Shown here piece after piece: positions 1-14,794 of a stretch of DNA of 33,501 nucleotides. The stretch lies in the IMG/VR virus record IMGVR_UViG_3300038652_000605, positions 1-33,501 of that record; one strand, written 5' to 3'. The first letter of the stretch is position 1; every line of letters begins with the position of its first letter. Below the pieces are notes generated by a model, which saw nothing but the letters and a program-made list of their open reading frames with translations, was not told the DNA's origin and searched no databases. The position numbers and the translations under genes are program-made. This DNA is from a virus.

Positions 1-777
1 TTATTTTACTAGATTTACGAACCCGAATAGATTCTTGTTATAATTACCAATCCCATTTGTATATGCGACTTCCTTTAATTCATTAGGACATATTAGACTA
101 AAAGTTACTTTGTATCCTTTTACATTTAGGTTCTTCCCAGAGAAGTTAATCTTAGTAAGCGAACTACTAGTTGATCCCATTAAAATATCCATAGAATTAA
201 CATCAAAATTACTTTTAGTATTTTGTGTATTTTCATATTTTTTAATTAAGTTTTGGAAGAAAGCAGTTTTGAATTCTGTAGATGCGAATTCTTGTGGTTC
301 ATAAGAAATACGAATGCCTTTTTTATAACCATCCTTGAGCAAACAAAAGTCATTTGATTTAAATGTGGATCTGTATACTATATCAGTATCTTCTCTTGTA
401 CCTAGTGATTCGTCAGTGCAACTCACATAGTCTACTTTTAAAAAGATTCTATCATTGTCACCACTTATATGGAACATCTCTCCCTTTAATCCGTTCAATA
501 GAGAATGAATATCAGGAACAAATGATGATACTTCTATAGATATGTATCCAGGAGATGAGACATCAAATCCTAATTTTCTATCAATCTTGTATCCACTTTC
601 AAACCTTATATTAGATATAACATAAGGTGATATTAAATCTACATCATGTAGCTTATCTGAAAATGCTTTATTCTTGCTTCCTATCATTTTTAGAAATAAA
701 GAAGACACTTTCTTTTTGTAATTAAAGGGTATTGTTTTATTATGCCCTATTATTTTAAATCTTATTTTAGTTTTCAT
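1..777 (-). CDS. cas6: Cas6-family CRISPR RNA endoribonuclease (phage-encoded, stand-alone)
   Basis: Cas6 enzymes cut CRISPR repeat RNA to make mature crRNA guides in type I and III systems. Three blocks of this 258-residue protein match the family. The N-terminus has IPFNY at 16-20, then VSSLFLKMI and a KLHD motif whose His44 sits where many Cas6 proteins have their catalytic histidine. The central-to-C-terminal part has the NLIKKYE block. The extreme C-terminus carries the glycine-rich RNA-binding loop, Gly242-x-Gly244 followed by LFGFVNLV with Gly252. The length is typical for Cas6 (about 240-260). The stop codon is at the very left edge, so the gene is complete. A strong host-type promoter lies just upstream (806-835). 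No other cas gene and no repeat-spacer array is visible in the window. Its substrate, whether phage array, host crRNA or a decoy, is unknown. The family call is confident; the role is not. Confidence 0.85.
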   Translation of the reverse strand: MKTKIRFKIIGHNKTIPFNYKKKVSSLFLKMIGSKNKAFSDKLHDVDLISPYVISNIRFESGYKIDRKLGFDVSSPGYISIEVSSFVPDIHSLLNGLKGEMFHISGDNDRIFLKVDYVSCTDESLGTREDTDIVYRSTFKSNDFCLLKDGYKKGIRISYEPQEFASTEFKTAFFQNLIKKYENTQNTKSNFDVNSMDILMGSTSSSLTKINFSGKNLNVKGYKVTFSLICPNELKEVAYTNGIGNYNKNLFGFVNLVK

Positions 778-805
778 ATACCAATAGATTATATTATATT
801 TTTGA

Positions 806-835
806 CAAATGTATTATAAATAATTGGTTATACAA
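806..835 (-). promoter_or_regulatory. Bacteroidota-type promoter for the cas6-like gene
   Basis: On the minus strand a -33 TTG (835-833) is followed by exactly 19 bases and a -7 TACATTTG (813-806), matching the Bacteroidota consensus TTG-N19-TAnnTTTG. The cas6-like ATG lies 29 bases downstream at 777, so the gene can be transcribed alone by host RNA polymerase. Confidence 0.65.
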
Positions 836-853
836 CTATAATATTTAAATAGT

Positions 854-1249
854 TTATAAATTTTCTTGTCTAAGCCTATCCCCAACCTCTTTAATTATCT
901 GATCATCAGATAATTCTGGGTTTTTTTCTTTTAATGTTCTAAATAACTCATTTTCTTCCTTTTGTAGTTTCTCAATCTCTTTATTCATGGGTGCCATAAG
1001 TGTTTCTAGCTTATTTCCCTCTACCTCTACCTCTTTAATAACCTCCATTAGCTTAGATATTGATTTCTCTGGATCAGTTACCTTCTTACTCTTGATGTCT
1101 TTTTGTAGCTTATCTAGACTCTCTATATTCTTATCTAGAATAGATACTATTTCTTTTGATCTTTTGTGATATAGTTCTATATTAGATGAAACCTTTAAAT
1201 ACTCTTGTCTTATAGTTACTGCTGATTGTAATAAATTTTCTTGAATCAT
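854..1249 (-). CDS. Coiled-coil protein of unknown function
   Basis: A 131-residue, highly charged (Lys/Glu-rich) protein without membrane segment or signal peptide. Heptad-like spacing of Leu/Ile from about residue 20 to 115 predicts long helices forming a coiled coil, broken near VTDPEKS (about 57-63). It starts 7 bases after the stop of the 324-residue protein at 1257-2231, so the two are probably co-transcribed. Its size and helical character recall small phage recombination or assembly mediators such as T4 UvsY (137 residues), but I see no sequence match and do not assign that function. Confidence 0.7.
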   Translation of the reverse strand: MIQENLLQSAVTIRQEYLKVSSNIELYHKRSKEIVSILDKNIESLDKLQKDIKSKKVTDPEKSISKLMEVIKEVEVEGNKLETLMAPMNKEIEKLQKEENELFRTLKEKNPELSDDQIIKEVGDRLRQENL

Positions 1250-1256
1250 ATTATAT

Positions 1257-2231
1257 CTATTTTTTTAGTTCACTAATTCTTTTCTTACCCGCTTCTTTTA
1301 CAGTCTTAGCAGTCTCGCCTTTTAAAGCTACACCAATTTCTTCTACTGTTTCTAACTTAGATATCGATTTAACCCTATCACTTGCACTAGGCTTTTTACT
1401 AGATTTAGCTTTAGGTTTAGATTCTTTCTTATCAGATTTAGATTTGCCATAGACTTTTATCTCAATTTCTCTCTTAATTCTATCTTTTACTAAGGATGGA
1501 TTATGTAATAACTCTCTAGTGAATTCCTCAGCTAAAAAATCAATAATAGATACATTATATGAATCCTCCATCATCTCTATAAAATCTAGACGAGGTATTT
1601 TCCTATCTATCTCTAAATCAAAAGTAAACGGTACATTCTTCTTGACATTTTTAAACATTGCTATAATCGGATCTTCATCTATCCTCTGTGTTTGTTGTAT
1701 AGGTTCTGCATTAGATTGTCTTGTTGTAGTTTCCCTAGTTTCGCTAGTTTGTTTAGTATCATAAGATATATCTTGTGATTTTCTAGCATTACTAGGATTT
1801 TCACTAGGGGTATCATCACCGTTTATGATTCTATTCATAGCTTCATTCTGCTTATTCACACTATCAGAAACATCAACCTCAGCACCATACTTTTTAGCTA
1901 ATGCTGCTCTTTCTTCCTCTTCGCTAGATTGTATGATTGCACTCTCATTACTAGAAGGTTTAAAAGAGTCATCTCTATCAAAACTAACATTTTCATCAAT
2001 CATATCATCTGTTTTTAGATTTTTGATGTCATTAAGCACACTAGAAAAGGCACTAGATGTATCTAAAAAAGAACTAGGATCTATTTGTTCCGAGTATTTA
2101 GATGTATCTAATAATACATTCTTATCAATCTTAGTCTTGTTTTCTAAAACTACAGTATCCCCAAAATTATCTAAAACTCTTATAGTTTCTCCTGTCTTAT
2201 TGTTTCTAAAAGTTTTGTTAGCTAAAGTCAT
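1257..2231 (-). CDS. Conserved phage-type protein of unknown function, start moved to 2231
   Basis: The reading frame is open back to 2354, but the extra 41 residues are AT-rich leader with no coding character. The natural start is the ATG at 2231, behind an AT-rich leader (AAATAAATAAC), giving 324 residues. The first 60 residues look like a small beta domain (TGETIRVLDNFGDTVVLENK, then IDPSSFLD). Residues about 70-190 are Ser/Thr/Glu-rich and probably disordered. A folded helical part (IPRLDFIEMMEDSY... LAEEFTRELL) follows at about 205-255. The tail is Lys/Ser-rich and basic. Probably co-transcribed with the coiled-coil gene downstream. Function not recognised; a disordered middle between two folded ends suggests an assembly or adaptor role, which is only inference. 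Confidence 0.75.
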   Translation of the reverse strand: MTLANKTFRNNKTGETIRVLDNFGDTVVLENKTKIDKNVLLDTSKYSEQIDPSSFLDTSSAFSSVLNDIKNLKTDDMIDENVSFDRDDSFKPSSNESAIIQSSEEEERAALAKKYGAEVDVSDSVNKQNEAMNRIINGDDTPSENPSNARKSQDISYDTKQTSETRETTTRQSNAEPIQQTQRIDEDPIIAMFKNVKKNVPFTFDLEIDRKIPRLDFIEMMEDSYNVSIIDFLAEEFTRELLHNPSLVKDRIKREIEIKVYGKSKSDKKESKPKAKSSKKPSASDRVKSISKLETVEEIGVALKGETAKTVKEAGKKRISELKK

Positions 2232-2342
2232 GTTATTTATTTTATTTTTTATTGTTTTAATAATTTTGTTTAAATATTCTATCAAAACACTTTTATTATT
2301 TATTATTATATACTTAAATATTAATTTGTTTAATAATACAAC

Positions 2343-2372
2343 AAAAAAAAGCACACATTGTATAATGTGTGC
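2343..2372 (-). terminator. Rho-independent terminator after the gp32-like gene
   Basis: A 9-bp perfect stem (2351-2359 with 2364-2372) and a 4-base loop, followed on the minus strand by eight T residues (2350-2343). It lies 20 bases past the gp32-like stop codon. Confidence 0.85.
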
Positions 2373-2393
2373 TTTCTTAATATTAACTATCTA

Positions 2394-3368
2394 CTAGAGG
2401 TCGTCAAAAAAGTCATCTTCGTCAGTACTAACTGCTTCTTCTTTACCTTCCGTGAAGTTATTCTCGAAATCGAAGTCGCTTGATTCGGGCTTTTGTTCAG
2501 AAGCACTAGTTGAATTAGCACTATTAAAGCTATTAGACGACTTACCAAGTAATATATTCGTAATTTCTGAAATTTTCGAATGTTGTTCGTCAGTAAGTGG
2601 CTTAGGGCCGAAGTCTTCTACATTATGATCTCTATCTAATAAAAATCCTTTAATCTTTCCTTGTGCCTTTTGACTTACTTTGTTATTTTCATCTAAAGGT
2701 ACATTCTTAAACTCTTTAGTTTCTTTAAAGTAGATTGGTAGAGATGTAGTTTGTTGCTTAAACATACTCATTTTGTAATCAGGGTAAGTTGCATCTCCTG
2801 TAGAGATTTCTTTTACGATTAATACAAAGTCCTTACCATCTGCTAGTTCAAACACATTACAAGGTTCACCAGAGATTTCTCCATTCTTTTCTGCCGAAAT
2901 CTTGTCCTTAATTGTCTTACCATACTGCATAACCATAATCTTACCAACTAACTCTGGTTGTTGCTCATCTTCAAGTACTAATACATAAGAGTAGTACTTT
3001 CTAGAGTAGTTAAGAACGTTCGCCTTCTCAACAAGAACTGCATTCTTAGAGTTCTTCATCTGGTAAAAAAGATTTGTAAGTGGACATGGTTCTCCAAAGT
3101 TTTTAGGAGAGTCATAATAACCACCTAATTCTCTTGGTTCTTTAATTTCTACATAGTGTGAAATCTTTTCAAGTGCTACTTGTCCTAATTTACCTTCCTC
3201 TGTTAGGTTAGGTAAAAACCTAACAACCGAACGATATCCTCTTTTAGTGTCCTTAACCTTTGTCAAGTCAACACGATAAATTCCATCGTTGTTTGAGGTC
3301 TTTTTTTCCTCTAAGAAGTCCATTTTCGTGTCTAGACTTCCGTCAAATAATTGATCTAATTCTTCCAT
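2394..3368 (-). CDS. 32: gp32-like single-stranded DNA-binding protein
   Basis: T4 gp32 coats single-stranded DNA cooperatively in replication, recombination and repair and recruits partners through an acidic C-tail. This 324-residue protein (T4: 301) has the same plan: GYRSVVRFLP (44-53) matches the T4 AVIRFLP strand, followed by YDSPKNFGEPCPL (85-97), KYYSYVLVLEDEQQPELVGKI and MQYGKTIKDKI. The linker is Ser/Asn-rich and the end is strongly acidic (DEDDFFDDL), as in T4. In T4 gp32 a zinc ion is held by His64 and three Cys. Here His71 and Cys95 remain, but the CPVC pair has become CPLT and the other Cys is missing, so the zinc site is probably lost. The gene is followed by a good terminator and preceded by about 200 AT-rich bases (3369-3570) in which I found no clear promoter. 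Confidence 0.9.
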   Translation of the reverse strand: MEELDQLFDGSLDTKMDFLEEKKTSNNDGIYRVDLTKVKDTKRGYRSVVRFLPNLTEEGKLGQVALEKISHYVEIKEPRELGGYYDSPKNFGEPCPLTNLFYQMKNSKNAVLVEKANVLNYSRKYYSYVLVLEDEQQPELVGKIMVMQYGKTIKDKISAEKNGEISGEPCNVFELADGKDFVLIVKEISTGDATYPDYKMSMFKQQTTSLPIYFKETKEFKNVPLDENNKVSQKAQGKIKGFLLDRDHNVEDFGPKPLTDEQHSKISEITNILLGKSSNSFNSANSTSASEQKPESSDFDFENNFTEGKEEAVSTDEDDFFDDL

Positions 3369-3570
3369 AATATTGCTTTTTATTTGTTTTTATATTCAAC
3401 TTAATTGTTGATATATGTTATATTAAAAAGGTCTGAAAAGTTTAGATTTATTTTTATTTATTTTTCTTTATTTCCCAACACTTTATAATACTGAATCTTT
3501 ATATAAGCAATATTACTGTTTGTTTATTTTTTAGTATTTATTTAACATATTCACCCTATCTATCTAAAGT

Positions 3571-3774
3571 TCACTGTGTCCAAATAATAGATAGTTCAAC
3601 TAAAGGACCTTCTAAATATGGTTTATCAAGGTTTTTGAAAGATATTATCCCAGTTTCTGCTTCTTTATTATATACTCTAAGATATACCATTTCCTCACAT
3701 TTCCAAAACACTAAACAACCTTCAAATAGCTTGGAATCTGGTCTTGTTGTTTTATCTATTGTATCTAATTTCAT
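3571..3774 (-). CDS. Small protein of unknown function, coupled to the exonuclease gene
   Basis: A 67-residue protein whose ATG overlaps the stop of the upstream DEDDh exonuclease gene by four bases (ATGA arrangement), suggesting translational coupling. It is mostly beta-like (LVFWKCEEMVYLRVYNKE, then GIISFKNL), with no transmembrane segment or recognisable motif. It could be a partner of the exonuclease, by position only. It is followed by about 200 bases without a gene. Confidence 0.6.
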   Translation of the reverse strand: MKLDTIDKTTRPDSKLFEGCLVFWKCEEMVYLRVYNKEAETGIISFKNLDKPYLEGPLVELSIIWTQ

Positions 3775-4511
3775 TGTTTCTTAGTCTTTATAACATTCAC
3801 TCTATCTAGCTGATACTTCTCTATGTCTAAAGAATGGTTATCTTTCATAGTTCTAAATATACTTATACACATCTCACCCATTAATACACAATCTGTAAGT
3901 GCATCATGGTATCCTTTCATATCTATATCTAGTGCTGGGCCGATTTTGGACAAAGAAGATGATATAAGACCATTGTCTCTATCAGATGTTCCAATTTTAT
4001 TTAGGAGTTCTTTATAATGGTTATCAGTTTCAGATAATTTTTGGAAAATAGGTATTAAATATAACCTAATAAGCATTTTAGTATCAAAAACTTCTTCAAC
4101 TATTTTATGATTATACCTACCAGTTAACATATCAACATCAAACGGTGCGTTTTGTGCAACTAATAGACTAGGAGTATTTTGTTTTATAAATTCAAAAAAA
4201 CTATCTAGTACAATATTTTCATTTTTATACACATAATCACCATCATCATAATGATTAAACTCTAATATAGGCTTAACTATATCATAACGCCTAATTGTTT
4301 CAGCGGTTAATAATATTTTTTCATCAAATTCTGCCTTGTATAAGAATTTATTTTCTAAATAATCATATTTAACTAACTTAGCAGACACTTGAGTTAGTTG
4401 CTCTATTTTAGAACCTTTGAGTCCTGTGGTTTCAGTGTCCAGTAAAATCCAATTTATTTCAGATTTATTTTCTAACCAACTAAGCATTTCTGGTATTGAC
4501 TTGTAATTCAT
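3771..4511 (-). CDS. DEDDh-type 3'-5' exonuclease (DnaQ-like)
   Basis: All three exonuclease motifs of the DnaQ / polymerase III epsilon fold are present: ExoI LLDTETTGL with Asp25 and Glu27, ExoII NAPFDVDML with Asp125, and ExoIII YHDALTDCV with His202 and Asp207. The His five residues before the last Asp places it in the DEDDh subgroup. At 246 residues it is a single exonuclease domain without a polymerase. In phages such enzymes trim 3' ends of DNA or RNA, proofread, or degrade small RNAs; which applies here cannot be told. It probably shares a transcript with the upstream 2H phosphoesterase (19-base gap) and the 67-residue gene downstream. Confidence 0.85.
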   Translation of the reverse strand: MNYKSIPEMLSWLENKSEINWILLDTETTGLKGSKIEQLTQVSAKLVKYDYLENKFLYKAEFDEKILLTAETIRRYDIVKPILEFNHYDDGDYVYKNENIVLDSFFEFIKQNTPSLLVAQNAPFDVDMLTGRYNHKIVEEVFDTKMLIRLYLIPIFQKLSETDNHYKELLNKIGTSDRDNGLISSSLSKIGPALDIDMKGYHDALTDCVLMGEMCISIFRTMKDNHSLDIEKYQLDRVNVIKTKKQ

Positions 4512-4530
4512 TTTATTTATTTTAAGGTTA

Positions 4531-5061
4531 TTATTCTAGTTTAAACATAGTCTTTTCATCTGCCGAGTACATAACTTTTTTAGATGATAGAGTAGCATTG
4601 TAATTATCAACAACATACTTTTTACCCTTACCTTTCTTCACATAAGCTATTGTGATATGTGGATTATAATCAGGGAAGTCTGTAGTATGTGGCAATATAG
4701 ATAATTTTTCATTAATATCTAACAATTCTTTAGTTTTTTTAACTTTGAATTTAACAACATCAAACTTATCATTCTCAAATAAATCAACTGACTCTAATTC
4801 TATATCAATAGAAGTATAACCTTCAAATGCCTTTTTCACGTCATCTATGCTAACTTCATCTTTATGAAGTCCAAATAGAAGTGTTAAGTGTGGTTCATCT
4901 TCTAAACCATCCTCACTTATATCCTCTTTGTCTATAAAGCTAGTTATTTCTCCCCAGTTCTTAACATTGAAGTATAACATAGCACATCCATATTCATATA
5001 TTTTTTCTTCTTTAGTTTCGTTTTTCTCATTGATGAACAATGAATAGCTTGTAATTATCAT
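4531..5061 (-). CDS. 2H phosphoesterase (LigT/CPDase-like; Acb1 anti-CBASS candidate)
   Basis: The 2H superfamily hydrolyses 2'-5' or cyclic phosphodiester bonds using two H-x-T/S motifs. This 176-residue protein has both: PHLTLLFG (His58, Thr60) and DFPDYNPHITIAY (His135, Thr137). The context of the second motif closely resembles the DYPDYRPHITLSY segment of T4 Acb1 (gene 57B), which degrades the cyclic nucleotide signals of CBASS anti-phage immunity. The same fold also includes RNA 2',3'-cyclic phosphodiesterases and phage 2'-5' RNA ligase-like proteins, so substrate cannot be read from the motifs. The first 25 residues (to YEYGC) look like an extension, so Met28 is an alternative start. 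It is the first gene of a minus-strand unit, divergent from the small gene at 5127. Confidence 0.8.
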   Translation of the reverse strand: MIITSYSLFINEKNETKEEKIYEYGCAMLYFNVKNWGEITSFIDKEDISEDGLEDEPHLTLLFGLHKDEVSIDDVKKAFEGYTSIDIELESVDLFENDKFDVVKFKVKKTKELLDINEKLSILPHTTDFPDYNPHITIAYVKKGKGKKYVVDNYNATLSSKKVMYSADEKTMFKLE

Positions 5062-5100
5062 ATTTTTACTTATTTTTAATTTATATATATATTAAAATAT

Positions 5101-5108
5101 TATATTTG
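5101..5108 (+). promoter_or_regulatory. Candidate -7 element (TATATTTG) for the small plus-strand gene
   Basis: TATATTTG matches the Bacteroidota -7 consensus TAnnTTTG and lies 18 bases before the ATG at 5127. No convincing TTG occurs 19 bases upstream, so this is a half-match only. Confidence 0.35.
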
Positions 5109-5126
5109 TAAAAAAAAATAACTGCT

Positions 5127-5294
5127 ATGGAAAAATTTTCAATGAAAGAACTTCTTAAAAATAAGTATGGAGAACCAGAAAAGAATAAAAAAACATCTTC
5201 GTCTACTAAAAAGTCAACTAAGAAAAAAGTAAATGATGGTAGTAAGTATAAAACTAAAATAGTTAATGGTGTTAAGTATATGATTCTTAGGTAA
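5127..5294 (+). CDS. Small Lys-rich protein of unknown function
   Basis: A 55-codon gene (ATG at 5127, TAA ending at 5294) filling the otherwise empty gap between two minus-strand genes. The product begins MEKFSMKELLKNKYG, has a Lys/Ser/Thr-rich middle (about 19-36) and ends with KTKIVNGVKYMILR. The pI is clearly very basic. A -7-like promoter element lies just upstream, and its stop abuts the end of the convergent gene at 5295. Coding is supported by exact fit to the gap and by its normal start context; function is unknown. A basic peptide of this size could bind nucleic acid or a host protein, which is inference only. Confidence 0.6.
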   Translation: MEKFSMKELLKNKYGEPEKNKKTSSSTKKSTKKKVNDGSKYKTKIVNGVKYMILR

Positions 5295-5843
5295 TTACTT
5301 AATCTTAATATCTAAGTAGCTTTCATCTTCATCTGCACCTAAATCTTGTTCCATATCAAGGTCAAATCCCTTATCAACAACATGGTGCATTACTGAGTCA
5401 AATTTACCTTTATGAATATTTAGCTTATCTAACATATTATCCAATACTCTTACTGTTACAGATTCACCGTCACTTCTCATTTTTTCTAAACGAGGAAGTA
5501 TTTCAGTTGCTATTTTTTCTGTCTCGCTGTGATCTGTATTACCTCTAGAATCTTTATCATACTCAAAGCTTTCGTTAAAAGGAGACATTAAATGCTTTAA
5601 GTTCCATGATGGTATAAACTTTTTATTCTTTTTTTCAAAATCTTCATATGACTCTAATCCATTCTCAATAGGATTTCTAATATACACAATATTAGCACCT
5701 TCCTTACTCATATCTGATATTCTGTTCCCTATATCTGTCTTAGAAGATAACTTCATAACTCTTTCCAGCTGGTCTACACTTTTTTGCCTAGGTAAAGATT
5801 CATTTATTACTTCTACTTCACTAAATTTGCTTAAATATTTCAT
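5295..5843 (-). CDS. Unknown protein with a capsid-targeting-like N-terminus
   Basis: A 182-residue charged protein not recognised by family. Its N-terminus has basic and hydrophobic residues in a short helix ending VINE15|Ser16, which fits the (I/L)-x-E cleavage consensus of T4-type prohead proteases and resembles the starts of the repeat paralogues at 14-18 kb. The rest is soluble and mixed, with an acidic C-terminal region (DLDMEQDLGADEDESYLDIKIK). It converges with the 55-codon gene, which ends one base away. If the N-terminal reading is right it would be an internal head protein, but this is inference from one motif. Confidence 0.65.
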   Translation of the reverse strand: MKYLSKFSEVEVINESLPRQKSVDQLERVMKLSSKTDIGNRISDMSKEGANIVYIRNPIENGLESYEDFEKKNKKFIPSWNLKHLMSPFNESFEYDKDSRGNTDHSETEKIATEILPRLEKMRSDGESVTVRVLDNMLDKLNIHKGKFDSVMHHVVDKGFDLDMEQDLGADEDESYLDIKIK

Positions 5844-5891
5844 AGTTTATTTTACTCATTTTAAGTTTATCACTTACGTTATATATTAAAT

Positions 5892-5922
5892 AAAAAAACC
5901 CATAATATAATTATGGGTTTTT
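5892..5922. terminator. Terminator after nrdB (bidirectional form)
   Basis: A 10-bp stem (5897-5906 with 5910-5919) with a 3-base loop, flanked by A-tract on the left and T-tract on the right, so it can work in either direction. It lies just past the nrdB stop at 5944 on the minus strand. Confidence 0.8.
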
Positions 5923-5943
5923 ATTAAAATGAAATATAAATTT

Positions 5944-6912
5944 CTAGAAATCTTCATCAAGGTCATCATAATCAATAGCTTTATCAGATACTTTTTGATA
6001 TTCACCCACTCTTTTTTCGAAAAAGTTGGTTTTGTTTTGTAAAGAAAGCATATCCATAAAATCAAATGGATTTTCAGAATTATAAACTTTTTCACAACCT
6101 AGTTCTAATAACCAGAAGTCTGCAACGAACTCTATATACTGCTTCATAAGGTCTGCGTTCATACCAATAAGTGCAACTGGTAAAGATTCTGATACGAATT
6201 CTTTCTCAATTTCAACAGCATCACATAATATAGCCTTAATTCTTTCTTTTGGAACTTGGTCTATAACATGATCGTTATGTATCATAGTTGCAAATTGACA
6301 ATGTAAGCCTTCATCTCTTGATATAAGTTCATTTGAAAATGTAAGACCTGGCATTAAACCTCTTTTCTTCAACCAGAAGATAGAACAAAATGATCCAGAG
6401 AAAAATATACCCTCAACTGCTGCAAAAGCAATTAAACGCTCAGCAAATGAATCTGATTCAATCCATTGTAAAGCCCAATCTGCTTTCTTTTTCACAGAAG
6501 GTACAGTCTCTAGTGCATTAAACAAACGCTCTTTCTCCTCATTATCTTTGATGTAAGTATCAATTAATAGAGAGTAAGTCTCCGAGTGAATATTTTCTAC
6601 CATGATTTGGAAGCCATAAAAGAATTTAGCCTCTGCATACTGAACTTCAGTTAAGAAATTTTCAGCTAAATTCTCGTTAACTATCCCGTCACTTGCCGCA
6701 AAGAAAGCCAAGACATTCTTAACATAAAATCTTTCATCATCATTTAACTTATTTTCCCAATCGTCCATATCTTGTGATAGATCAATTTCTTCGGCAGTCC
6801 AAAATGAATGTTCTGCTGTTTTATACATTTGCCAAATATCGTTATGTTGTAATGGAAATATTACAAATCTATTTGGATTTTCCTTTAAAATTGGTTCTTC
6901 TTGTTTGCTCAT
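5944..6912 (-). CDS. nrdB: Class Ia ribonucleotide reductase small subunit (NrdB/R2)
   Basis: R2 holds the di-iron centre and tyrosyl radical used by the large subunit to convert ribonucleotides to deoxyribonucleotides. All expected residues are visible: Asp75, Glu106, His109, Glu167, Glu201 and His204 as iron ligands, and Tyr113 as the radical tyrosine four residues after His109 ([12 protein letters not shown]). This IHSETY form resembles the eukaryote/Bacteroidota branch more than E. coli. The length, 322 residues, is normal, and the C-terminus ends acidic-aromatic (DDLDEDF), as needed to dock on NrdA. The gene stands alone between a promoterless AT-rich region and a terminator; nrdA is not in this window, so it is either elsewhere in the phage or supplied by the host. 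Confidence 0.95.
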
Positions 6913-7056
6913 ATAATTAAATTTTGTTTACTATATATATCATTATAACTCTACTATGTTTAGTTATTTCTAGATATTTTTTAATATCTTTTGATATGTT
7001 TAACTTATATTAATATAAGACTTGTTTATCCATATATTTTTTATACAACTATTATG

Positions 7057-7086
7057 TTGTCAATATATAATTATTTAGTATATTTG
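7057..7086 (+). promoter_or_regulatory. Bacteroidota-type promoter for the gene at 7110
   Basis: TTG at 7057-7059, a 19-base spacer and TATATTTG at 7079-7086 give a full match to TTG-N19-TAnnTTTG, 23 bases before the ATG. A short dyad (ACAAC, 6 bases, GTTGT; 7045-7060) overlaps the -33 element and could be an operator. Confidence 0.65.
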
Positions 7087-7109
7087 TTTTAAATTAATAA
7101 ATAAATAAA

Positions 7110-7460
7110 ATGAAATTCATATACAATAGTGTATTTTACATTTGTAATAAGATTGTTAGTAACATAAGACCTAATAGCTGGCAAAGTTGGCAATCAGTCA
7201 GAATGACATGCACCATTCCAAAAAAAGTGTATTTAGATATTAAAGGAACTAGTGGCGATATTGAATTTATAATATATGATGATAATAGTCCTAAAGTGTC
7301 TTATGTATTATACAATTCTACTATAGAAAGAATGACAATTGCATCGACTTTCAAAAACGGTGATGTTAGAGTCATATTTATATTGTCAGTTACTGATTCA
7401 GAAGTTATAGAAAATAAATCATTTATAAGAAATTTAAAGTTAAAGCAAGTATATCTTTAA
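7110..7460 (+). CDS. Unknown protein
   Basis: A 116-residue protein, not recognised. The N-terminus (MKFIYNSVFYICNKIV) is hydrophobic but short, with no clear cleavage site. The body has alternating hydrophobic residues suggesting beta strands (KVYLDIKG, DIEFIIYDD, KVSYVLYN, DVRVIFILSV). It is a single-gene unit with its own host-type promoter upstream and a terminator directly downstream. This pattern is typical of small phage accessory genes, often early and directed against host functions, but nothing in the sequence proves that. Confidence 0.65.
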   Translation: MKFIYNSVFYICNKIVSNIRPNSWQSWQSVRMTCTIPKKVYLDIKGTSGDIEFIIYDDNSPKVSYVLYNSTIERMTIASTFKNGDVRVIFILSVTDSEVIENKSFIRNLKLKQVYL

Positions 7461-7464
7461 AAAT

Positions 7465-7495
7465 AAAAGCCAGAAGTAGCGAATTTCTGGCTTTT
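7465..7495 (+). terminator. Rho-independent terminator after the 7110 gene
   Basis: Stem AAAAGCCAGAA (7465-7475) with its complement at 7485-7495, 9-base loop, ending in a T-run. It starts five bases after the stop codon. Confidence 0.85.
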
Positions 7496-7510
7496 TATAG
7501 TTGTTATAAC

Positions 7511-7550
7511 TACACCGATCCTAAAGTAAGGGCATTCGCCCCTCGGTGTT
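7511..7550 (+). ncRNA. GC-rich nested hairpin of unknown function in the leader of 7645
   Basis: ACACCGA (7512-7518) pairs perfectly with TCGGTGT (7543-7549). Inside, GGGC (7530-7533) and GCCC (7538-7541) close a 4-base ATTC loop, leaving an 11-base one-sided bulge on the 5' side. The block is far more GC-rich than its surroundings and lacks a T-run, so it is not an ordinary terminator; the terminator of the preceding gene is separate and upstream. It lies about 95 bases before the ATG at 7645. I could not match it to a riboswitch or ribozyme class. It may be a leader regulator, a small RNA or a processing site. Strand is assumed from the downstream gene. Confidence 0.4.
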
Positions 7551-7644
7551 AAAAGTATATATTATTATTCAAAGCCTCCTTTTATTAAACTTTTTAGAAC
7601 ATTGAGCATAAAACAATAAATAATAAATAATAAAAATCATTAAA

Positions 7645-7953
7645 ATGACAAAACACGAAGTAAAAGTAGAAATCACAGAGAAAGACTCTATCTTGAGTAT
7701 GATTAACAAAGCCTATCCCAAAAGTATGAAGGGTAGGATAAATGGTAATGAGAACTTTATGGAAATATATAGCACTAGTGATAGTTTTTCTGTATTCAAA
7801 GGTCTTAATGGCTCAACTGCTAAGATAAGTAATCAAGAGATTATAGATGGAACTATTAGAGTTATGGTAAAGGAAGAGAAAGGAATTGTCAAACTATACC
7901 CCATTTCTATTTATTGTATAGATGATGAACAAGGTAGATATATCTTTTACTAA
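7645..7953 (+). CDS. Unknown protein ahead of the GMP reductase-like gene
   Basis: A 102-residue soluble protein of unknown family, mixed alpha/beta in appearance (EVKVEITEKDSILSMINKAY at the start; IVKLYPISIYCIDDE near the end). Its TAA is followed after one base by the ATG of the next gene, so the two are almost certainly one operon and may be translationally coupled. The long leader (about 185 bases from the previous stop) contains the GC-rich hairpin at 7511-7550. A link to purine metabolism is suggested only by the neighbour. Confidence 0.65.
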   Translation: MTKHEVKVEITEKDSILSMINKAYPKSMKGRINGNENFMEIYSTSDSFSVFKGLNGSTAKISNQEIIDGTIRVMVKEEKGIVKLYPISIYCIDDEQGRYIFY

Positions 7954-7954
7954 T

Positions 7955-8983
7955 ATGAGAGATATAAAACTAGATTGGAATGACATATCATTAGTACCAC
8001 AGGCTATAAGTAGCATATCTTCAAGAAATGAAGTTACTATAAAAGACTTATATAATATGCTTCCTTTATTCACTGCACCAATGGATACAGTTATTGACGG
8101 GGATAATTCTAAAACATTTCACGATAAGGATATAAACGTTTGTCTACCTAGAAATGTTAAGTTCAAGAAAGGCAGTGAACAGAAGTATTTCTATTCATAT
8201 GGACTTGATGATATTATAGAGAAAGTAAATAATGATTTGTTATTACCAAATAGGATACTAATAGATGTTGCTAATGGTCATATGGAAAAACTTATAAATA
8301 TATCAAAAAAGATAAAAGATAAGTATGGCAATGATAAGGAACTTATGGTTGGTAATATAGCCAACCCAGAAACATATAAAACTTATTGTGCTATTGGTGT
8401 TGATTATATAAGAGTTGGTATAGGTGGTGGAAGTTCTTGTACAACATCTGCCAATGTATCTATCCATTACCCAATGGCATCGCTTATATCAGAGTGTTAT
8501 GATATAGGATTGTTGTATGCTAAGCCAACAAAAATAATAGCAGACGGTGGCTTTAGAAGCTTTTCAGATGTTATAAAAGCCATTGCAGTTGGTGCTGATT
8601 ATGTTATGCTTGGTGGTATTTTTAATAAATGTATGGAAAGTTGTAGCACTAGTTATACTAAGCTTAGTGATAATACTTATGTAGAAAAGGATTATATGAC
8701 TGCTAGGACATTATTTGAAAGTGGTGATAATGTATATAAATACTATAGAGGTATGTCAACAAAAGAAGTACAGAAAGCCTGGAATAAAAAAGATTTAAAA
8801 ACAGGTGAAGGTATAACCAAATATAACTTGGTCGAATATACTTTGGACGGATGGGTAGAAAACTTTAGCGATTATTTAAAATCCGCTATGTCATATACTG
8901 GGTGTAGAACACTAGAAGATTTTATAGGCGGACCAGAGATTATTCAAATATCACAAATGTCTTTTAATAGATTCAATAAATAA
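7955..8983 (+). CDS. IMP dehydrogenase / GMP reductase family enzyme
   Basis: These TIM-barrel enzymes interconvert IMP with XMP or GMP through a catalytic cysteine. Family signatures are clear: LPLFTAPMDTV (36-46), the active-site loop GIGGGSSCTTS with Cys162, KIIADGGFRSFSDVIKAIAVGADYVMLGG split as IIADGG (194-199) and GADYVMLGG (213-221), and YYRGMSTKE (263-271). At 342 residues with no CBS insert it has GMP reductase-like size. The residue after CTT is Ser165 where most members have Arg. The ATG at 7955, right after the previous stop, is preferred over in-frame starts at 7922/7925 inside the preceding gene. Whether it makes IMP from GMP or XMP from IMP cannot be told. Ends in a bidirectional terminator. 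Confidence 0.85.
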   Translation: MRDIKLDWNDISLVPQAISSISSRNEVTIKDLYNMLPLFTAPMDTVIDGDNSKTFHDKDINVCLPRNVKFKKGSEQKYFYSYGLDDIIEKVNNDLLLPNRILIDVANGHMEKLINISKKIKDKYGNDKELMVGNIANPETYKTYCAIGVDYIRVGIGGGSSCTTSANVSIHYPMASLISECYDIGLLYAKPTKIIADGGFRSFSDVIKAIAVGADYVMLGGIFNKCMESCSTSYTKLSDNTYVEKDYMTARTLFESGDNVYKYYRGMSTKEVQKAWNKKDLKTGEGITKYNLVEYTLDGWVENFSDYLKSAMSYTGCRTLEDFIGGPEIIQISQMSFNRFNK

Positions 8984-9012
8984 AAAAAACCACCTTAGAG
9001 GTGGTTTTTTTT
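8984..9012. terminator. Bidirectional terminator between convergent genes
   Basis: AAAAAACCACCT (8984-8995), 3-base loop, and its complement (8999-9010), with A-tract and T-tract on the two sides. It starts directly after the plus-strand stop and touches the minus-strand stop at 9011. Confidence 0.85.
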
Positions 9013-9361
9013 ATTTATTCATTTTATACATTATGAAAGTTTTAAAACCAGCCTTAGTAGTTTTGTCTGTTTTAGACAAACAATCTATTTTATCAGCTAT
9101 TCTTTCTTCATCACCACCTTTCTCTATCCACACAGCATCTATTAACATGTTATCAGATAATATCTTACTTATATCAATGTAAGATTCTCCTTCCAATGTA
9201 TTAGCATAAAACTGTGTTTTTAATGGACTATCCGCAATTTTGTGTATAGTTAATGTTTCATCATCAAATTCAATTGTCTCTATATAAGTTTCGTCCACTT
9301 CAGCACTTTCTTTTATAAACATTGCCATTGTTTTTATAAATCTTTTGTTTCTTTTTTCCAT
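9011..9361 (-). CDS. Unknown protein with a possible capsid-targeting N-terminus
   Basis: A 116-residue protein of unknown family. The N-terminus is basic then hydrophobic (KRNKRFIKTMAMF) and runs into FIKE18|Ser19, again matching the (I/L)-x-E|S pattern seen in the repeat paralogues and at 5295-5843. Internal starts at Met12 or Met14 would shorten but not remove this segment. The remainder is acidic, with DETYIETIEFDDETLTI and a Lys-rich end. It begins two bases after the 146-residue gene upstream, so they form one operon. Confidence 0.65.
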   Translation of the reverse strand: MEKRNKRFIKTMAMFIKESAEVDETYIETIEFDDETLTIHKIADSPLKTQFYANTLEGESYIDISKILSDNMLIDAVWIEKGGDEERIADKIDCLSKTDKTTKAGFKTFIMYKMNK

Positions 9362-9363
9362 AA

Positions 9364-9804
9364 TTATATTGAGTATTTTTTGAGTATTTTTTTTATATCA
9401 CTAAATGATTTTGTAGTTAGTTTAGCTCTTTTGACATCCATGTAATCAATTTCACCATCCTCATAATCAAATTCTAACCAAGTAAGTGTCCCAGCTTCAA
9501 TCTTCACAAAGCATTTAGTTTTCTCTTTCTTGTCAGTCATATCATATGTGACCGAAAAATTAAATCTAACTTGCTCTGGTATACTTCCTTCGTAACTATT
9601 ATCCCTATTAGGATCTTTACTATCTAAACGATAGTCCATAAATACCTTATTAGATCCTGGTACAAATGCAACTCTTTTATATGTTGCTTTAGGATTACTA
9701 AAAGTTAGAGTTTTGGGAAAATCCGACTCTTTGAATTTTTTATAATATTCTAATGAATAGTTTAATTCAGGTGTATAATTTTCGAATTTTTTAATATGAT
9801 TCAT
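9364..9804 (-). CDS. Unknown protein, MNHIKKFENY N-terminus
   Basis: A 146-residue soluble protein with no recognised domain. Its first residues (MNHIKKFENYTPE) resemble the MKHIKPYKIFES start of the tandem paralogues, though the position three before Glu8 is Lys rather than Ile/Leu. The middle has beta-like strands (KRVAFVPGSNKVFMDYRL, RFNFSVTYDM, CFVKIEAGTLTWLEFDYEDG). On the minus strand TTAATATATA (9818-9809) lies 5 bases before the ATG, the same motif as ahead of several structural genes. Likely a virion-associated protein, by inference. Confidence 0.65.
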   Translation of the reverse strand: MNHIKKFENYTPELNYSLEYYKKFKESDFPKTLTFSNPKATYKRVAFVPGSNKVFMDYRLDSKDPNRDNSYEGSIPEQVRFNFSVTYDMTDKKEKTKCFVKIEAGTLTWLEFDYEDGEIDYMDVKRAKLTTKSFSDIKKILKKYSI

Positions 9805-9832
9805 AAAGTATATATTAAGTTACAAATATTGC

Positions 9833-10657
9833 TTATCTTATCAAATCTAAATCAATCTTAATGAACTCATCTTTATATCTCCATATGAATCCCATTGCTG
9901 TCTTTGACAAACCCCTACACACATTTGCTATATTGCCTTTATTATAACCTAGTTCTCTATTTACTTGAGCTGGGGAATCCCATTCTTTTAAAAAGTTACC
10001 ATCTAAACTATATTGATACACAATTTTCTTTGAGTTACTAAGTTGTTTTTTCCAAACTTCTTTTTCTTTTTTAATATTATGGTCTTGTAAAGACTGCCAT
10101 ATTTTCTTTCCACTAAAACCCAATTCCTTAGAAATACTTGGTATAGATAGATTATCCGTTATATATAATTTGTATAGTAAGTCTTTATCAATTACTTTTT
10201 TAATATTATTACCACTCCTATTATAGTTTGGTCTATCTATGTATATGTCTTTCACAGATTTTGAAATTTCTTCTTTATGTGAATTTGTCAAAGTACATCC
10301 TAGTTTGGATTTTCTCATTTTTAGCTTACTCTCTTTATTGTGTTTATAACCATTAAGTCCTATGCCACCACTAGTTAAGTTTGTTAGGTTAAATCCCCAG
10401 CATCTTAGTTGTGTTATCCAGTAAGTTTCCCAAAACTCCCAATCCTCACTAGAAACCTCATCAATAACTTCTATAGTAGGTTTTTTATCTTTTTCAAGTA
10501 GAGATCTAATCCAATTAGCTTTGTGAGATTTTGATCCTAGCTTAGAAGTTGTTATATGTGCATTTAGCCTTTTATTTACCTTTAATTGGGTTTTGCCAAC
10601 ATACCTTATCTGATTAGTTATTGGATCTACTAGTGTATATATGCATATTGTTTTCAT
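9833..10657 (-). CDS. GIY-YIG homing endonuclease with NUMOD3/NUMOD1-type DNA-binding tail
   Basis: Free-standing homing endonucleases cut related phage genomes and spread by repair of the break. The catalytic GIY-YIG domain fills residues 1-95: IYTLVDP (Tyr7), IRYVGKT (Tyr19, Gly21), Arg30 and a Glu in WEFWETYWI (Glu77). After it come NUMOD3-like basic repeats (GYKHNKESKLKMRKSKLG, then NSHKEEISKSVK), a helix-turn-helix-like part (LSIPSISKELGFSGKKIWQSL), and a C-terminal NUMOD1-like repeat (VYQYSLDGNFLKEWDSPAQV, then GNIANVCRG and GFIWRY). At 274 residues it looks intact. It lies directly downstream of the probable virion gene at 10707-11492, whose other side carries a second homing endonuclease, suggesting that gene or its alleles are the target. 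Confidence 0.9.
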   Translation of the reverse strand: MKTICIYTLVDPITNQIRYVGKTQLKVNKRLNAHITTSKLGSKSHKANWIRSLLEKDKKPTIEVIDEVSSEDWEFWETYWITQLRCWGFNLTNLTSGGIGLNGYKHNKESKLKMRKSKLGCTLTNSHKEEISKSVKDIYIDRPNYNRSGNNIKKVIDKDLLYKLYITDNLSIPSISKELGFSGKKIWQSLQDHNIKKEKEVWKKQLSNSKKIVYQYSLDGNFLKEWDSPAQVNRELGYNKGNIANVCRGLSKTAMGFIWRYKDEFIKIDLDLIR

Positions 10658-10706: not shown

Positions 10707-11492
10707 TTATTTTTTAACCATGAAGAAGAATGATGAATTAGACATTTCGCCTATATAATCCGTAACCTCCTTAGTTTCCTCCTTTCCCTGTGATACCAAG
10801 TCAGCTCCATTTATCTTAACAGCACCAGGCAATGAGAAGTCATACCTACCAACCATGTTGCCTAGTTGTTGTTTAGCATACCCTGCTACATATTTAAAGA
10901 AAAGGTCATCGTTAAATAAATTCTCTTTAGGAATATCGGCATAGGCTTCCATAATCACGTTGTGCTTAATATTAGTCAATATGTGTAATCTGTGGTTTAA
11001 TTGGTTGTATTGGTGCTTTAATGTATACTTATTCATCTGGTTAAGCATATCAGACATACTATCTAGTACTGTTTTATACACCCCAAGCTCACCGATTGTG
11101 GTTACGTAGGAAGATAGGTAGGGTTGATTTGTAACACCTAAATTAACCGACATATTAGGAGTATTAATACCCAACTGAAACAATGAATCCCCTCTAACTT
11201 CATATAAGTAAGTTACAGACTGTATTTCACAAGGAACTGTCACATAGTTATACTTAGTAAATTCATCTGTCTGAAAGGCTTCCTTTCTTATTAAAAAGTA
11301 CATTTTCTGAACTGCATACATATAAGACCTATAGAAATATGGCAATGCTCTTTTTTCTATTGTAAGCCTTATTGCCTCATCTGGTAATGTCTTAGGTAAA
11401 GAACATGCTATTGTTAATTCTGTTTGTATAGAATCTATAAACTCTTCTATTGTTTGACCACCTTGAAATGGTTTGTAATCTTCTCCTTCCAT
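10707..11492 (-). CDS. Probable virion structural (neck/connector-like) protein
   Basis: A 261-residue, mostly helical protein starting MEGEDYKPFQGGQTIEEF. The C-terminal half has AKQQLGNMVGRYDFSLPGAV followed by KINGADLVSQGKEETKEV. I associate this LG-x-G-x-F/Y-x-LPGa-ln-g pattern with conserved virion proteins of large myoviruses, though I cannot name the T4 counterpart. There are no membrane segments. It is bracketed by two unrelated homing endonuclease genes, which typically settle beside conserved, essential phage genes; this supports an essential structural role. On the minus strand AATATATAAGT precedes the start, resembling the late-type motif. Confident as a gene, moderate on role. 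Confidence 0.6.
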   Translation of the reverse strand: MEGEDYKPFQGGQTIEEFIDSIQTELTIACSLPKTLPDEAIRLTIEKRALPYFYRSYMYAVQKMYFLIRKEAFQTDEFTKYNYVTVPCEIQSVTYLYEVRGDSLFQLGINTPNMSVNLGVTNQPYLSSYVTTIGELGVYKTVLDSMSDMLNQMNKYTLKHQYNQLNHRLHILTNIKHNVIMEAYADIPKENLFNDDLFFKYVAGYAKQQLGNMVGRYDFSLPGAVKINGADLVSQGKEETKEVTDYIGEMSNSSFFFMVKK

Positions 11493-11543
11493 AAATAAAT
11501 AGTATTTTACTTATATATTATTTTCTGATATTAAGAAAGTGGC

Positions 11544-11551
11544 TATATTTG
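11544..11551 (+). promoter_or_regulatory. Candidate -7 element (TATATTTG) for the large homing endonuclease gene
   Basis: TATATTTG matches TAnnTTTG and sits 28 bases before the ATG at 11580. The -33 region (TTTTCTG around 11521-11527) is only a weak match, so confidence is modest. Confidence 0.4.
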
Positions 11552-11579
11552 ATATATACTAAAACATATATGCTTACTC

Positions 11580-13388
11580 ATGCGAGAACTAATAGAAAAA
11601 AAGACATGTAATATAGGATCATTGTGTAGCTTTTTGAATAATAGTGAGAACTTTTTGTATTTAAAACACATAAATGACTCACTTGGTAAATCATTTATGG
11701 ATATTCCCTTAACAACATCAGAAAAAATATATTATTATATAAATAGAATTAATATACCGAATCTATGTTTTTGTGGACAAAGAACTAAGTTCATAGGCTT
11801 TAAAAATGGACATAGAAAAACATGTGGTTCTAAAGAATGTGTAGTTATATCAAGAAAAAATACTTGTATAGATAAATATGGTGTAGACAATCCTAAGAAG
11901 TCAAAAGAGATAAAAGATAAAGAACAATATAAGATTAAAGAGAAATGGGATGGTAAGCATTATATGCACAATAATGATGTTAAGGCTAAATTTAACTCCA
12001 CTATGGATGATAGGTATGGTGTTAAATGGGCTCAGCAATCAAATCTAATATCTAAGAAAAGCATAAGTACCTTTTCACACAACACAGATAGAGAGGATAT
12101 AATTAGAACAAGGGCAAATTCTAATAAGGACAAATCATTAGATGAAAAGAAGTTAATAGATGAAAAGAAGAAGAAAACACTAGAAGAAAATTGGGGTAGT
12201 ATATCATTGTTTAATGACTATAGGAATGAGAAGATAAAAGAATCATCAATGAAAAAATGGGGAGTTGACCATCACTTTAAGGCAAATACAATAGCTAAAA
12301 AAAGAATTGATTCTTATAATAATACACAAATGAAAAGCCTTATAGATTCTTTACCAAAAGAAGTATCCTTTATATCAAAGAAGCAAAATAATAACAATAC
12401 TGATACTGTGTTTAAGCTAGTGTGTGAAACATGTGATAAGCATTTTAGTATAAATAGACAACTTATGTGGTTTCGCATTAAATCAAATAGTGGAGTATGT
12501 GTATATTGTAATCCTATATCTAGTGGTAAATCTAATAAAGAGCTAGAAGTATTAGACTTTATAAAAAGCATATACAAGGGAAAGATTGTTTCAAATGCTA
12601 GGAATATTATATCAAAGGAGTTAGACATATATATACCTTCTTTAAAAATAGCATTTGAGTTTAATGGACTTTATTGGCATAGTGATTTGTTTAAGACCAA
12701 GAGTTACCATTTAGACAAAAGTAAAGAGTGTGAAGATGTTGATATTCAATTAATACACATTTGGGAAGATGATTGGGATTATAAGAAAGATATTGTAAAA
12801 TCTATTATATCTTATAAGTTAAATAAATCAGATAGGATATTTGCTAGAAAGTGTGTTATTAAAGAGATAAAAGATAACTCTATAGTTAAGAAGTTTTTAT
12901 TAGACAATCATATACAAGGATTTGTTGGTTCTAGAGTTAAAATAGGCTTATTTTTTGAGAAAGAACTAGTTAGTTTAATAAGTTTTGGTAGCCTTAGAAA
13001 ATCTTTAGGTCATAAATCCTCTGCAAATAGATGGGAGTTATTAAGGTTCTGTAATAAGATAAATACATCTGTTATAGGTGGTGCATCTAAGTTATTTAAT
13101 TTCTTCATAAAGAATTATAATCCAGAATATGTAATGAGTTATAGTGATTCGTCTAGGGGAAAGGGAAATCTGTATGATGTATTAAAATTTAAGAGAAATC
13201 ATCAAACTGTACCTAATTATTACTGGGTTATTGATGGTATAAAAACACATAGGTTTAACTGGAGGAAGGACAAGCTTGTTAAAATGGGGTATAGTTCAGA
13301 TAAAACAGAAATAGAAATAATGAATGAAATTGGATATTATAGAATTTTTGATTGTGGATCTTGTAGATGGGACTGGTTTGGTAAATAA
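11580..13388 (+). CDS. Large homing endonuclease (zinc-finger, Vsr-like nuclease; Hef-like)
   Basis: A 602-residue multi-domain protein of the type annotated in phages as Hef-like or Vsr/EDxHD homing endonuclease. The N-terminal Cys cluster (Cys63, Cys65, Cys82, Cys87) probably binds zinc. Three DNA-binding repeats of the YGVxNP type follow (KYGVDNPKKS, RYGVKWAQQS, KWGVDHHFKA), linked by Lys-rich helices. A second CxxC pair (CETC, CVYC) precedes the nuclease core, with Asp349 (ELDIYIP) and Glu360 in AFEFNGLYWHS, then IQLIHIWEDDW, as in Vsr-like enzymes. The last 160 residues (from RKCVIKEI to CRWDW) form the conserved tail of this group. It is unrelated to the GIY-YIG endonuclease on the far side of the 10707 gene and has its own possible promoter. 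It looks intact. Confidence 0.85.
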   Translation: MRELIEKKTCNIGSLCSFLNNSENFLYLKHINDSLGKSFMDIPLTTSEKIYYYINRINIPNLCFCGQRTKFIGFKNGHRKTCGSKECVVISRKNTCIDKYGVDNPKKSKEIKDKEQYKIKEKWDGKHYMHNNDVKAKFNSTMDDRYGVKWAQQSNLISKKSISTFSHNTDREDIIRTRANSNKDKSLDEKKLIDEKKKKTLEENWGSISLFNDYRNEKIKESSMKKWGVDHHFKANTIAKKRIDSYNNTQMKSLIDSLPKEVSFISKKQNNNNTDTVFKLVCETCDKHFSINRQLMWFRIKSNSGVCVYCNPISSGKSNKELEVLDFIKSIYKGKIVSNARNIISKELDIYIPSLKIAFEFNGLYWHSDLFKTKSYHLDKSKECEDVDIQLIHIWEDDWDYKKDIVKSIISYKLNKSDRIFARKCVIKEIKDNSIVKKFLLDNHIQGFVGSRVKIGLFFEKELVSLISFGSLRKSLGHKSSANRWELLRFCNKINTSVIGGASKLFNFFIKNYNPEYVMSYSDSSRGKGNLYDVLKFKRNHQTVPNYYWVIDGIKTHRFNWRKDKLVKMGYSSDKTEIEIMNEIGYYRIFDCGSCRWDWFGK

Positions 13389-13392
13389 AGCA

Positions 13393-14034
13393 TTATCTTA
13401 ACTTCATTTTAATAAATGTCATAACAATATTTTCTTTTGTTTTATTATCCTCTGTATTAAACCATTTCCAGGTAAAGGTAGATTCCAAAAATACTGTTTT
13501 ATCTCGATAAGAATCTATTACTCCTAACATGTTATCCTTATCACTTTCATCTAGGCTATAATTTATATCTAACCCATCACATATTCTATACATAGCTATT
13601 CTATCCTTATCTTTATATGCAACAGTAGCATTTATATACGTATTATTTTTTTTATTATCTTTAACTTTATCTGGGTGTGTTATTTTAGCAATAGACCTAT
13701 ATAATTGTCTTAACTTTATATCATCATCCACTTTTCCAACAGACTCTTCAATGCTTTCCTTCTCTTCCTTATTATCATCATTCTTTTTACTTTCTTGTGA
13801 TATTTCATTTTTAAGTTCTTTTATTTTATTTTCTAAGTCTTTGTTTAGAGCTTGTTCTAATTTATTGTTATATGCTTTTTTAAGACTAGGATTATCTTCT
13901 AGAACATCATCAATAGCTTTTGTGAATAAATCATCAGAATTTGAGACTATTTCGGATACATAATTATAGTTTTCTTCTATATAATCTAACTCTTTTATAA
14001 GTTTTTTCAATTCTAACTCTTTAATTCTATCCAT
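13393..14034 (-). CDS. J-domain-like protein (HPD motif) with coiled-coil N-terminus
   Basis: J domains stimulate Hsp70/DnaK ATPase through an HPD tripeptide. Starting at the ATG at 14034 (213 residues) the first 100 residues are charged helices likely to form a coiled coil. The region from about 107 reads LRQLYRSIAKITHPDK (His120-Pro121-Asp122), then NATVAYKDKDRIAMYRI, which matches J-domain helices II and III. The C-terminal 60 residues are of unknown fold. The frame is open to an ATG at 14076, but the stretch between contains a TATAATATATAAATATA leader resembling other phage starts, so 14034 is preferred. The phage may use it to recruit host DnaK, for instance in head assembly or replication (inference). 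It converges with the homing endonuclease, 4 bases apart. Confidence 0.7.
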   Translation of the reverse strand: MDRIKELELKKLIKELDYIEENYNYVSEIVSNSDDLFTKAIDDVLEDNPSLKKAYNNKLEQALNKDLENKIKELKNEISQESKKNDDNKEEKESIEESVGKVDDDIKLRQLYRSIAKITHPDKVKDNKKNNTYINATVAYKDKDRIAMYRICDGLDINYSLDESDKDNMLGVIDSYRDKTVFLESTFTWKWFNTEDNKTKENIVMTFIKMKLR

Positions 14035-14109
14035 TGGGTGGTGGTTACCTTTATATTTATATATTATAAGAAACATGTTTTGTTTATATTTTAATACATA
14101 ATATACAAA

Positions 14110-14119
14110 TTAATATATA
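14110..14119 (+). promoter_or_regulatory. TTAATATATA motif ahead of the repeat-paralogue cluster
   Basis: The decamer lies 4 bases before the first ATG of the cluster. The same decamer precedes genes at 20110, 22480 and 27173 (plus) and at 9804 and 5061 (minus). It may be a phage late-promoter core comparable to the T4 TATAAATA box, but such AT-rich words also arise by chance here. Confidence 0.3.
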
Positions 14120-14123
14120 CTCT

Positions 14124-14792
14124 ATGAAACATATAAAACCTTATAATATATTCGAGAGTGCTAGCACTAACTTCCCAACTACAAGAGATGAGGTTATAAA
14201 AGTGTGTAAAAGATATAATATAAGAAATTATACCATAAACGATGATTTGAGTATCGATGTTGACGGTGTTGTTTATTTAGATAATAGAAATTTAGAATAC
14301 TTACCACTTAGATTTAATTATGTGAGTGGTGGTTTTGATTGTTTTAAAAATATATTAGTATCGTTAGAAGGTAGTCCACTAACACTAGGTGGTAATTTTG
14401 ATTGTGGTTATAATGAATTAAAGACATTAGAAGGTAGTCCACAAACAGTAGATGGTAATTTTGTGTGTCATGATAATAAATTAAAGACATTAGAAGGTTG
14501 TCCACAAACAGTAGGTGGGAATTTTAATTGTGTCAATAATGAATTAAAAGACTTAGAACACTTCCCAGAAGTGAATGGATTTATACGTATAAATAAAAAC
14601 GCAGTATATCACTTAGCATATACCTTTATTTATAAAGCCAATAGCTTTATGATAGAAGATTTCAATGACTATGAAATAGTTAGAAACAGAGGTACTGTTA
14701 TGTTAGATAGACTCCAAACATTCATAAGGGATAATGATTTAGAAATGCCTGACTTAGAAGATATTAAAAAACACTATAAAATAATAGAATAA
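14124..14792 (+). CDS. Tandem LRR-like repeat protein, paralogue 1
   Basis: First of six tandem paralogues with one plan: a short N-terminus (here MKHIKPYNIFES), a conserved 50-residue domain (NFPTTRDEVIKVCKRY, then YTINDDLSIDVDG), a repeat region, a closing LEHFPEVNG unit and a conserved C-terminal domain (SFMIEDFNDYEIV... MLDRLQTFIRDNDLEMPDL... YKIIE). This copy (222 residues) has three full 21-residue leucine-rich-like units of the form LKTLEGSPQTVxGNFxCxxN plus a degenerate first unit (YLPLRFNYVSGGFDC). Such repeats are widespread in phages of Bacteroidota but have no known function. The IFE11|S12 start fits a T4-type capsid-targeting sequence. The next paralogue begins two bases after its stop. 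Confidence 0.85.
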   Translation: MKHIKPYNIFESASTNFPTTRDEVIKVCKRYNIRNYTINDDLSIDVDGVVYLDNRNLEYLPLRFNYVSGGFDCFKNILVSLEGSPLTLGGNFDCGYNELKTLEGSPQTVDGNFVCHDNKLKTLEGCPQTVGGNFNCVNNELKDLEHFPEVNGFIRINKNAVYHLAYTFIYKANSFMIEDFNDYEIVRNRGTVMLDRLQTFIRDNDLEMPDLEDIKKHYKIIE

Positions 14793-14794
14793 AA

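Follow-up and report, generated by a model that had tools for sequence, protein, structure and literature searches.

A cas6 gene at the edge of a viral record opens a phage-borne type I-B CRISPR-Cas operon

The I-B subtype of CRISPR-Cas is set by its effector genes; cas4-cas1-cas2 belong to complete systems and are often absent from virus-borne ones. The I-B loci of Campylobacterota plasmids and Bacteroidota are ordered cas6-cas8b-cas7-cas5-cas3-cas4-cas1-cas2, and extra genes occur in some of them. Huge phages carry CRISPR-Cas systems as well, nearly all of them without acquisition genes; their arrays have a median of six repeats, and some target the structural genes of other phages (PMC7162821). 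In the type I variant reported from huge phages, Cas6, Cas1 and Cas2 are missing and Cas3 is replaced by another helicase (Al-Shayeb et al. 2020, PMC7162821). ICP1 carries a complete type I-F system with acquisition genes, which is aimed at PLE (PMC6452262, PMC11656645), and haloarchaeal proviruses have type I-B systems without acquisition genes (PMC12596717).

The locus described here shares with the type I-B systems of Bacteroidota (Alkaliflexus imshenetskii and relatives) the order cas6-cas8b-cas7-cas5-cas3-...-cas2, the Cas3 family and a repeat of 30 nt whose 3′ end reads TTxAAAT. It differs from them in being phage-borne and without cas4 or cas1, in a Cas3 that is 32-37% identical, in a diverged protein at the Cas8b position and in a repeat that is identical to that of Alkaliflexus at 18 of 30 positions. 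As in the huge-phage systems (PMC7162821), the carrier is a huge phage, acquisition genes are mostly missing and spacers appear to be directed at genes of other phages, whereas Cas6, Cas3 and cas2 are all present here and the repeats number 58 compared to a median of six. ICP1 likewise is a phage carrying a type I interference system with an array, but the present system is of subtype I-B and without cas1. The haloarchaeal I-B systems are also virus-borne and without an acquisition module; those are found in archaeal proviruses, whereas ours is found in a phage of a probable Bacteroidota host and has kept cas2. A I-B system with Cas3 in a huge phage, long arrays and a solitary Cas2 are what makes the locus distinctive, and a close match may have been reported by Al-Shayeb et al. 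(Cell, 2022), who surveyed virus-encoded systems. Our preferred reading, to which we give a probability of about 0.86, is that the phage carries a type I-B interference system derived from Bacteroidota, that at least part of its targets are competing phages, and that the acquisition of spacers has been lost or outsourced.

The window (the whole stretch of DNA that was analysed, 33,501 bases) is the record of a linear virus fragment. Its first features are the following:

1..777, minus strand: cas6, 258 aa, first gene of the phage type I-B operon (PADLOC, Pfam, identical protein in two other contigs)
778..853, minus strand: intergenic stretch of 76 nt in front of cas6, which marks the left edge of the cassette and probably holds the promoter (sequence; promoter-like match)
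854..1249, minus strand: conserved phage gene of 131 aa that borders the cassette upstream of cas6 (comparison with LR745206.1 and LR756502.1)

Judged by sequence comparison, the product of 777..1 on the minus strand is a genuine Cas6, as the preliminary description had proposed. The PADLOC Cas6b profile matches it over its full length (residues 1-257, E 1e-21), and Pfam recognises the C-terminal domain Cas_Cas6_C in the 258-aa protein (1.2e-9). We aligned it with Cas6 sequences collected from related loci (55 rows). The likely catalytic His44 named earlier aligns with a position at which 54 of the 55 rows have His, and the C-terminal Gly-rich loop is recognisable as GIGNYNKNLFGF, with G242, G244 and G252 kept and Leu at column 250, which is usually Gly. 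Six residues past His44, the phage protein has Ser compared to Lys in 95% of the aligned family. The protein is identical in three contigs of the same phage (the window record and two more), and the one nucleotide difference in cas6 between strains is synonymous. Single-sequence structure prediction gave a pLDDT of 30, too low for use. Searches for related Cas6 found no further one in other viral contigs and no Cas6 in phage records. As for the promoter attributed to the gene, a consensus-like TTTATA-16-TATAAT (10/12) does lie upstream of cas6 and is found at the equivalent place in the sister contig introduced below (piece L003), but it is a consensus match only, in surrounding DNA that is very AT-rich.

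The remainder of the operon is found in this sister contig, IMGVR_UViG_3300036669_000019 (G001; 45,108 bases), whose identity to the window is about 99% across positions 1-10061 and 18294-22496. There, a 702-aa ORF overlaps the cas6 stop codon (TAATG). Gene families were assigned with PADLOC profiles, plus Pfam, as follows (L003 coordinates of the sister contig):

10777-12885: 702-aa ORF in the cas8b position
12918-13838: cas7 (Cas7b, 9e-15)
13851-14666: cas5 (Cas5 of I-B, 1e-12)
14635-17244: cas3 (PADLOC Cas3b, 4.8e-196)
17293-17562: cas2 (Cas2b, 5e-31)

The phage cassette is thus ordered cas6, 702-aa ORF, cas7b, cas5b, cas3b, cas2, followed by two arrays, and its ORFs are open and tightly packed. 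The cas6 gene is the first gene of the phage's own type I-B CRISPR-Cas operon and not an orphan enzyme. The HD and helicase motifs of Cas3 are intact (LHD, GHS, KHH, the Walker A motif PTGGGKT, IDEIQ and AGRINR) and are in substance common to the relatives aligned.

The 702-aa protein has no match in the profile libraries. Against a profile of six Bacteroidota Cas8b-position proteins, it obtained an hhalign score of 29.7, compared to at most 27.0 in 80 shuffles; the match covers a 70-residue C-terminal stretch with a probability of 4%. With a broader profile, the score was not separated from shuffles, and single-sequence structure prediction of this protein reached a pLDDT of 32, too low for use. 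We refer to the protein as a putative Cas8b, an assignment made mainly by position and suggestive only.

The closest cellular sequences are found in Bacteroidota. The best match of Cas3 is in Alkaliflexus imshenetskii, and Cas3 matches were obtained in 7 of 396 sampled genomes, namely Alkaliflexus and six further Bacteroidota (32-37% identity); Cas2 and Cas6 also have their best matches in Bacteroidota. In a quick tree, the phage Cas3 stands beside the Bacteroidota group (SH-aLRT 85), a placement that is tentative because the phage branch is long. The Bacteroidota repeats of the family are likewise about 30 nt long and end in ATTGAAAT. Both Cas3 and the format of the repeat point towards Bacteroidota, and the probable host is a member of this phylum; related phages infect Prevotella, Tenacibaculum, Flavobacterium and Chryseobacterium. 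The search for related Cas3 found no further one in other viral contigs and three weak Cas3 helicase matches in faecal phage records.

The two tandem arrays (G001 34787-38663, equal to L012 288-4164) begin about 7 kb downstream of cas6 and are known from this single contig. They comprise 58 repeats and 56 spacers, laid out as 46 repeats, a gap of 101 nt and then 12 repeats. As many as 48 repeats are exactly identical, while repeats 46 and 58, at the array ends distant from cas2, are degenerate. A phage-borne mini-array elsewhere had been suggested as a possible substrate of Cas6: arrays do exist, but they are long rather than mini and are accompanied by effector genes of their own. Other viral contigs gave no match to the exact repeat, and genome contigs none to a slightly degenerate form; a short degenerate core of the repeat gave only three single matches, which look like chance. 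Some spacers resemble one another, with spacers 16 and 17 identical and spacers 30 and 37 near-identical. Translated, spacers 15 and 45 resemble the Walker-A motif of ATPases or helicases, and a degenerate pattern of spacer 45 (TGYGKTMMGLL, Walker-A-like) matched the array itself only.

The 30-nt repeat, GTATAATCCTAGCCATAATGGCGTTAAAAT, folds into a hairpin (GCCA-UAA-UGGC) followed by an 8-nt 3′ tail, which, going by known type I crRNAs, would be the geometry expected of a 5′ tag made by Cas6. In the working that we propose, Cas6 would cut the array transcript after this hairpin, so that the 8-nt tag GUUAAAAU stays on each crRNA. The crRNAs would then load into a Cascade of Cas7, Cas5 and Cas8b, and Cas3 would degrade the matching DNA.

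Targets were found for 1 of the 56 spacers, with no exact match, and the matches are too inexact for a PAM to be read. For spacer 21, 34 of 37 positions agree with gp103 of Sphingomonas phage PAU (E 4e-4), and 33-35 of 37 nt with five other IMG/VR contigs. In the two contigs that we read by eye, the target adjoins a tail-collar-like gene in one and lies near portal- and terminase-like genes in the other. The gp103 protein itself was recognised by eye as a repeat protein in the style of DUF285 (BspA-like), and a repeat of that style can be read in spacer 25 too. From the one matching spacer, we infer that at least some of the targets would be other phages competing for the same host, which suggests that this clade of phages, more than 600 kb in size, carries its own memory of rivals. 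Self-targeting was rejected, spacer matches to the phage's own known sequence being no better than chance.

Alternatively, the operon may be a real I-B system whose main role is directed against the host or host-borne elements, either as counter-defence in the manner of ICP1 or for the silencing of host genes. ICP1 and several huge phages use CRISPR in this way (PMC6452262, PMC7162821, PMC11656645), and for most spacers of our phage no target was identified. Nevertheless, the one supported target family consists of phage genes, and thirteen spacers compared with plasmids gave no match. We consider a mainly host-directed role unlikely, though still a serious contender to an interference system aimed at competing phages.

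Of the acquisition genes, cas4 and cas1 are absent from the known sequence of the phage and cas2 is present. The Cas1 family search was empty in the three contigs of the phage and in its relatives LR745206.1 and LR756502.1, and positive in 9 of 14 control genomes. A cas1 gene elsewhere in the phage is possible because most of its genome is unseen. Within our preferred reading, the cassette would have lost spacer acquisition and new spacers would need host Cas1 (with Cas4) in trans, possibly joined by the phage's own Cas2. It is conceivable, but we hold it doubtful, that the kept cas2 and the unusually long arrays with their recent-looking duplicates reflect spacer gain during infection, in which host Cas1 (and Cas4) would act in a mixed complex with the Cas2 of the phage. 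If true, this would be a half-outsourced adaptive immunity, storing the phage lineage's memory of competitors. The locus offers a ready case for the question of array growth in phages without cas1.

The missing cas1 and cas4 could also be taken as signs of a decaying, non-functional CRISPR relic, as could a Cas6 devoid of the commonly conserved Lys and of one loop Gly and the very divergent protein at the Cas8b position. Such decay is improbable given that all ORFs are open and closely packed, that the catalytic motifs of Cas3 are intact and 48 repeats exactly identical, and that the sole strain difference in cas6 is silent.

We then place the cassette in its phage lineage. The baseplate-wedge-like protein of the phage is 72% identical to that of LR745206.1 (634,780 bases) and 68% identical to that of LR756502.1 (642,428 bases), which are its nearest relatives and both huge phages; weaker matches are found in Prevotella Lak, Flavobacterium and Tenacibaculum phages. 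Beyond the arrays lies a 646-aa gene. In LR745206.1 and LR756502.1, this gene directly follows the 131-aa gene, about 55 bases apart, and a Cas7 search of both genomes gave no match. With the flanking genes adjacent and no Cas7 found in either of these genomes, an insertion of the cassette in the lineage of our phage is the probable explanation; the alternative, loss in both relatives, is less simple. To a clade of phages of more than 600 kb, the locus adds a type I-B system that has Cas3, 56 spacers and a Cas2 that was kept, and the two relatives provide a clean empty site for comparison.

The same comparison bears on a chimeric assembly, in which a bacterial CRISPR locus would have been fused to the phage. 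Although the operon past cas6 is seen in one contig only, both flanks of the cassette are phage, the gene beyond the arrays is homologous to huge phages and in the expected order (131-aa, then 646-aa; 64% and 58% identical), and cas6 itself is found in three contigs, so that a chimera is very improbable.

The apparent solitude of cas6 can be traced to the edges of the records. The cas6 stop codon ends on base 1 of the window, and the ATG of a 380-aa AAA_5-like gene begins on base 33,501. Another record of this phage (G002, 19,282 bases) begins at the identical cas6 stop. Ends that fall so exactly on gene boundaries look like the result of automatic trimming, in which flanks presumed to be host would have been removed. 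Because cas6 ends at base 1 of the fragment, its downstream side is out of view, and the start of two records at the cas6 stop, together with the end of the window at a start codon, means that the absence of other cas genes reflects the cut. The preliminary description of a lone Cas6 with no array or other cas gene nearby is accurate inside the window, where the best match to the phage repeat is 20/30, the same as in shuffled sequence, and where Cas1 and Cas7 searches of the record gave no match. It fails just past the cas6 stop, where the sister contig continues with the operon and then the arrays. The functions proposed for a Cas6 without its system, among them action on another RNA target, lose their premise with 56 spacers and a I-B operon directly downstream in the same phage, and the anti-CRISPR and sequestration readings were dropped once the operon was found. 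A solitary phage Cas6 that cuts or sequesters host crRNA precursors as an anti-CRISPR has in its favour that cas6 is alone among cas genes in the window record, and is extremely unlikely given the cas8b-position ORF, cas7, cas5, cas3, cas2 and arrays of the sister contig and the exact gene-edge ends of the records. The tempting claim of an orphan Cas6 is hereby corrected, and the case shows how a cut at gene edges can make a gene, such as cas6 here, look solitary in a viral record.

Finally, several differences between strains and recurrent features were observed elsewhere in the window. At window 5879-5943, the sister contig (L003 4204-4833) has an extra 209-aa gene that is absent from the window. 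Positions 14124-18647 hold a tandem family of at least six paralogues that start with MKHIKPYKIFES or similar and have repeat-like cores; strains differ in their copy number and order, and the first paralogue has no Pfam match. GIY-YIG-like and HNH-like endonuclease ORFs, recognised by eye as probable homing endonucleases, are located at 9833-10657 and 11580-13388. An N-terminus of the type MK-[HY]-[IL]-x-x-[FY] is common to several otherwise different small proteins (window 5295-5843, 9364-9804 and 14124-18647), and we presume a resemblance to the capsid-targeting peptides of T4.
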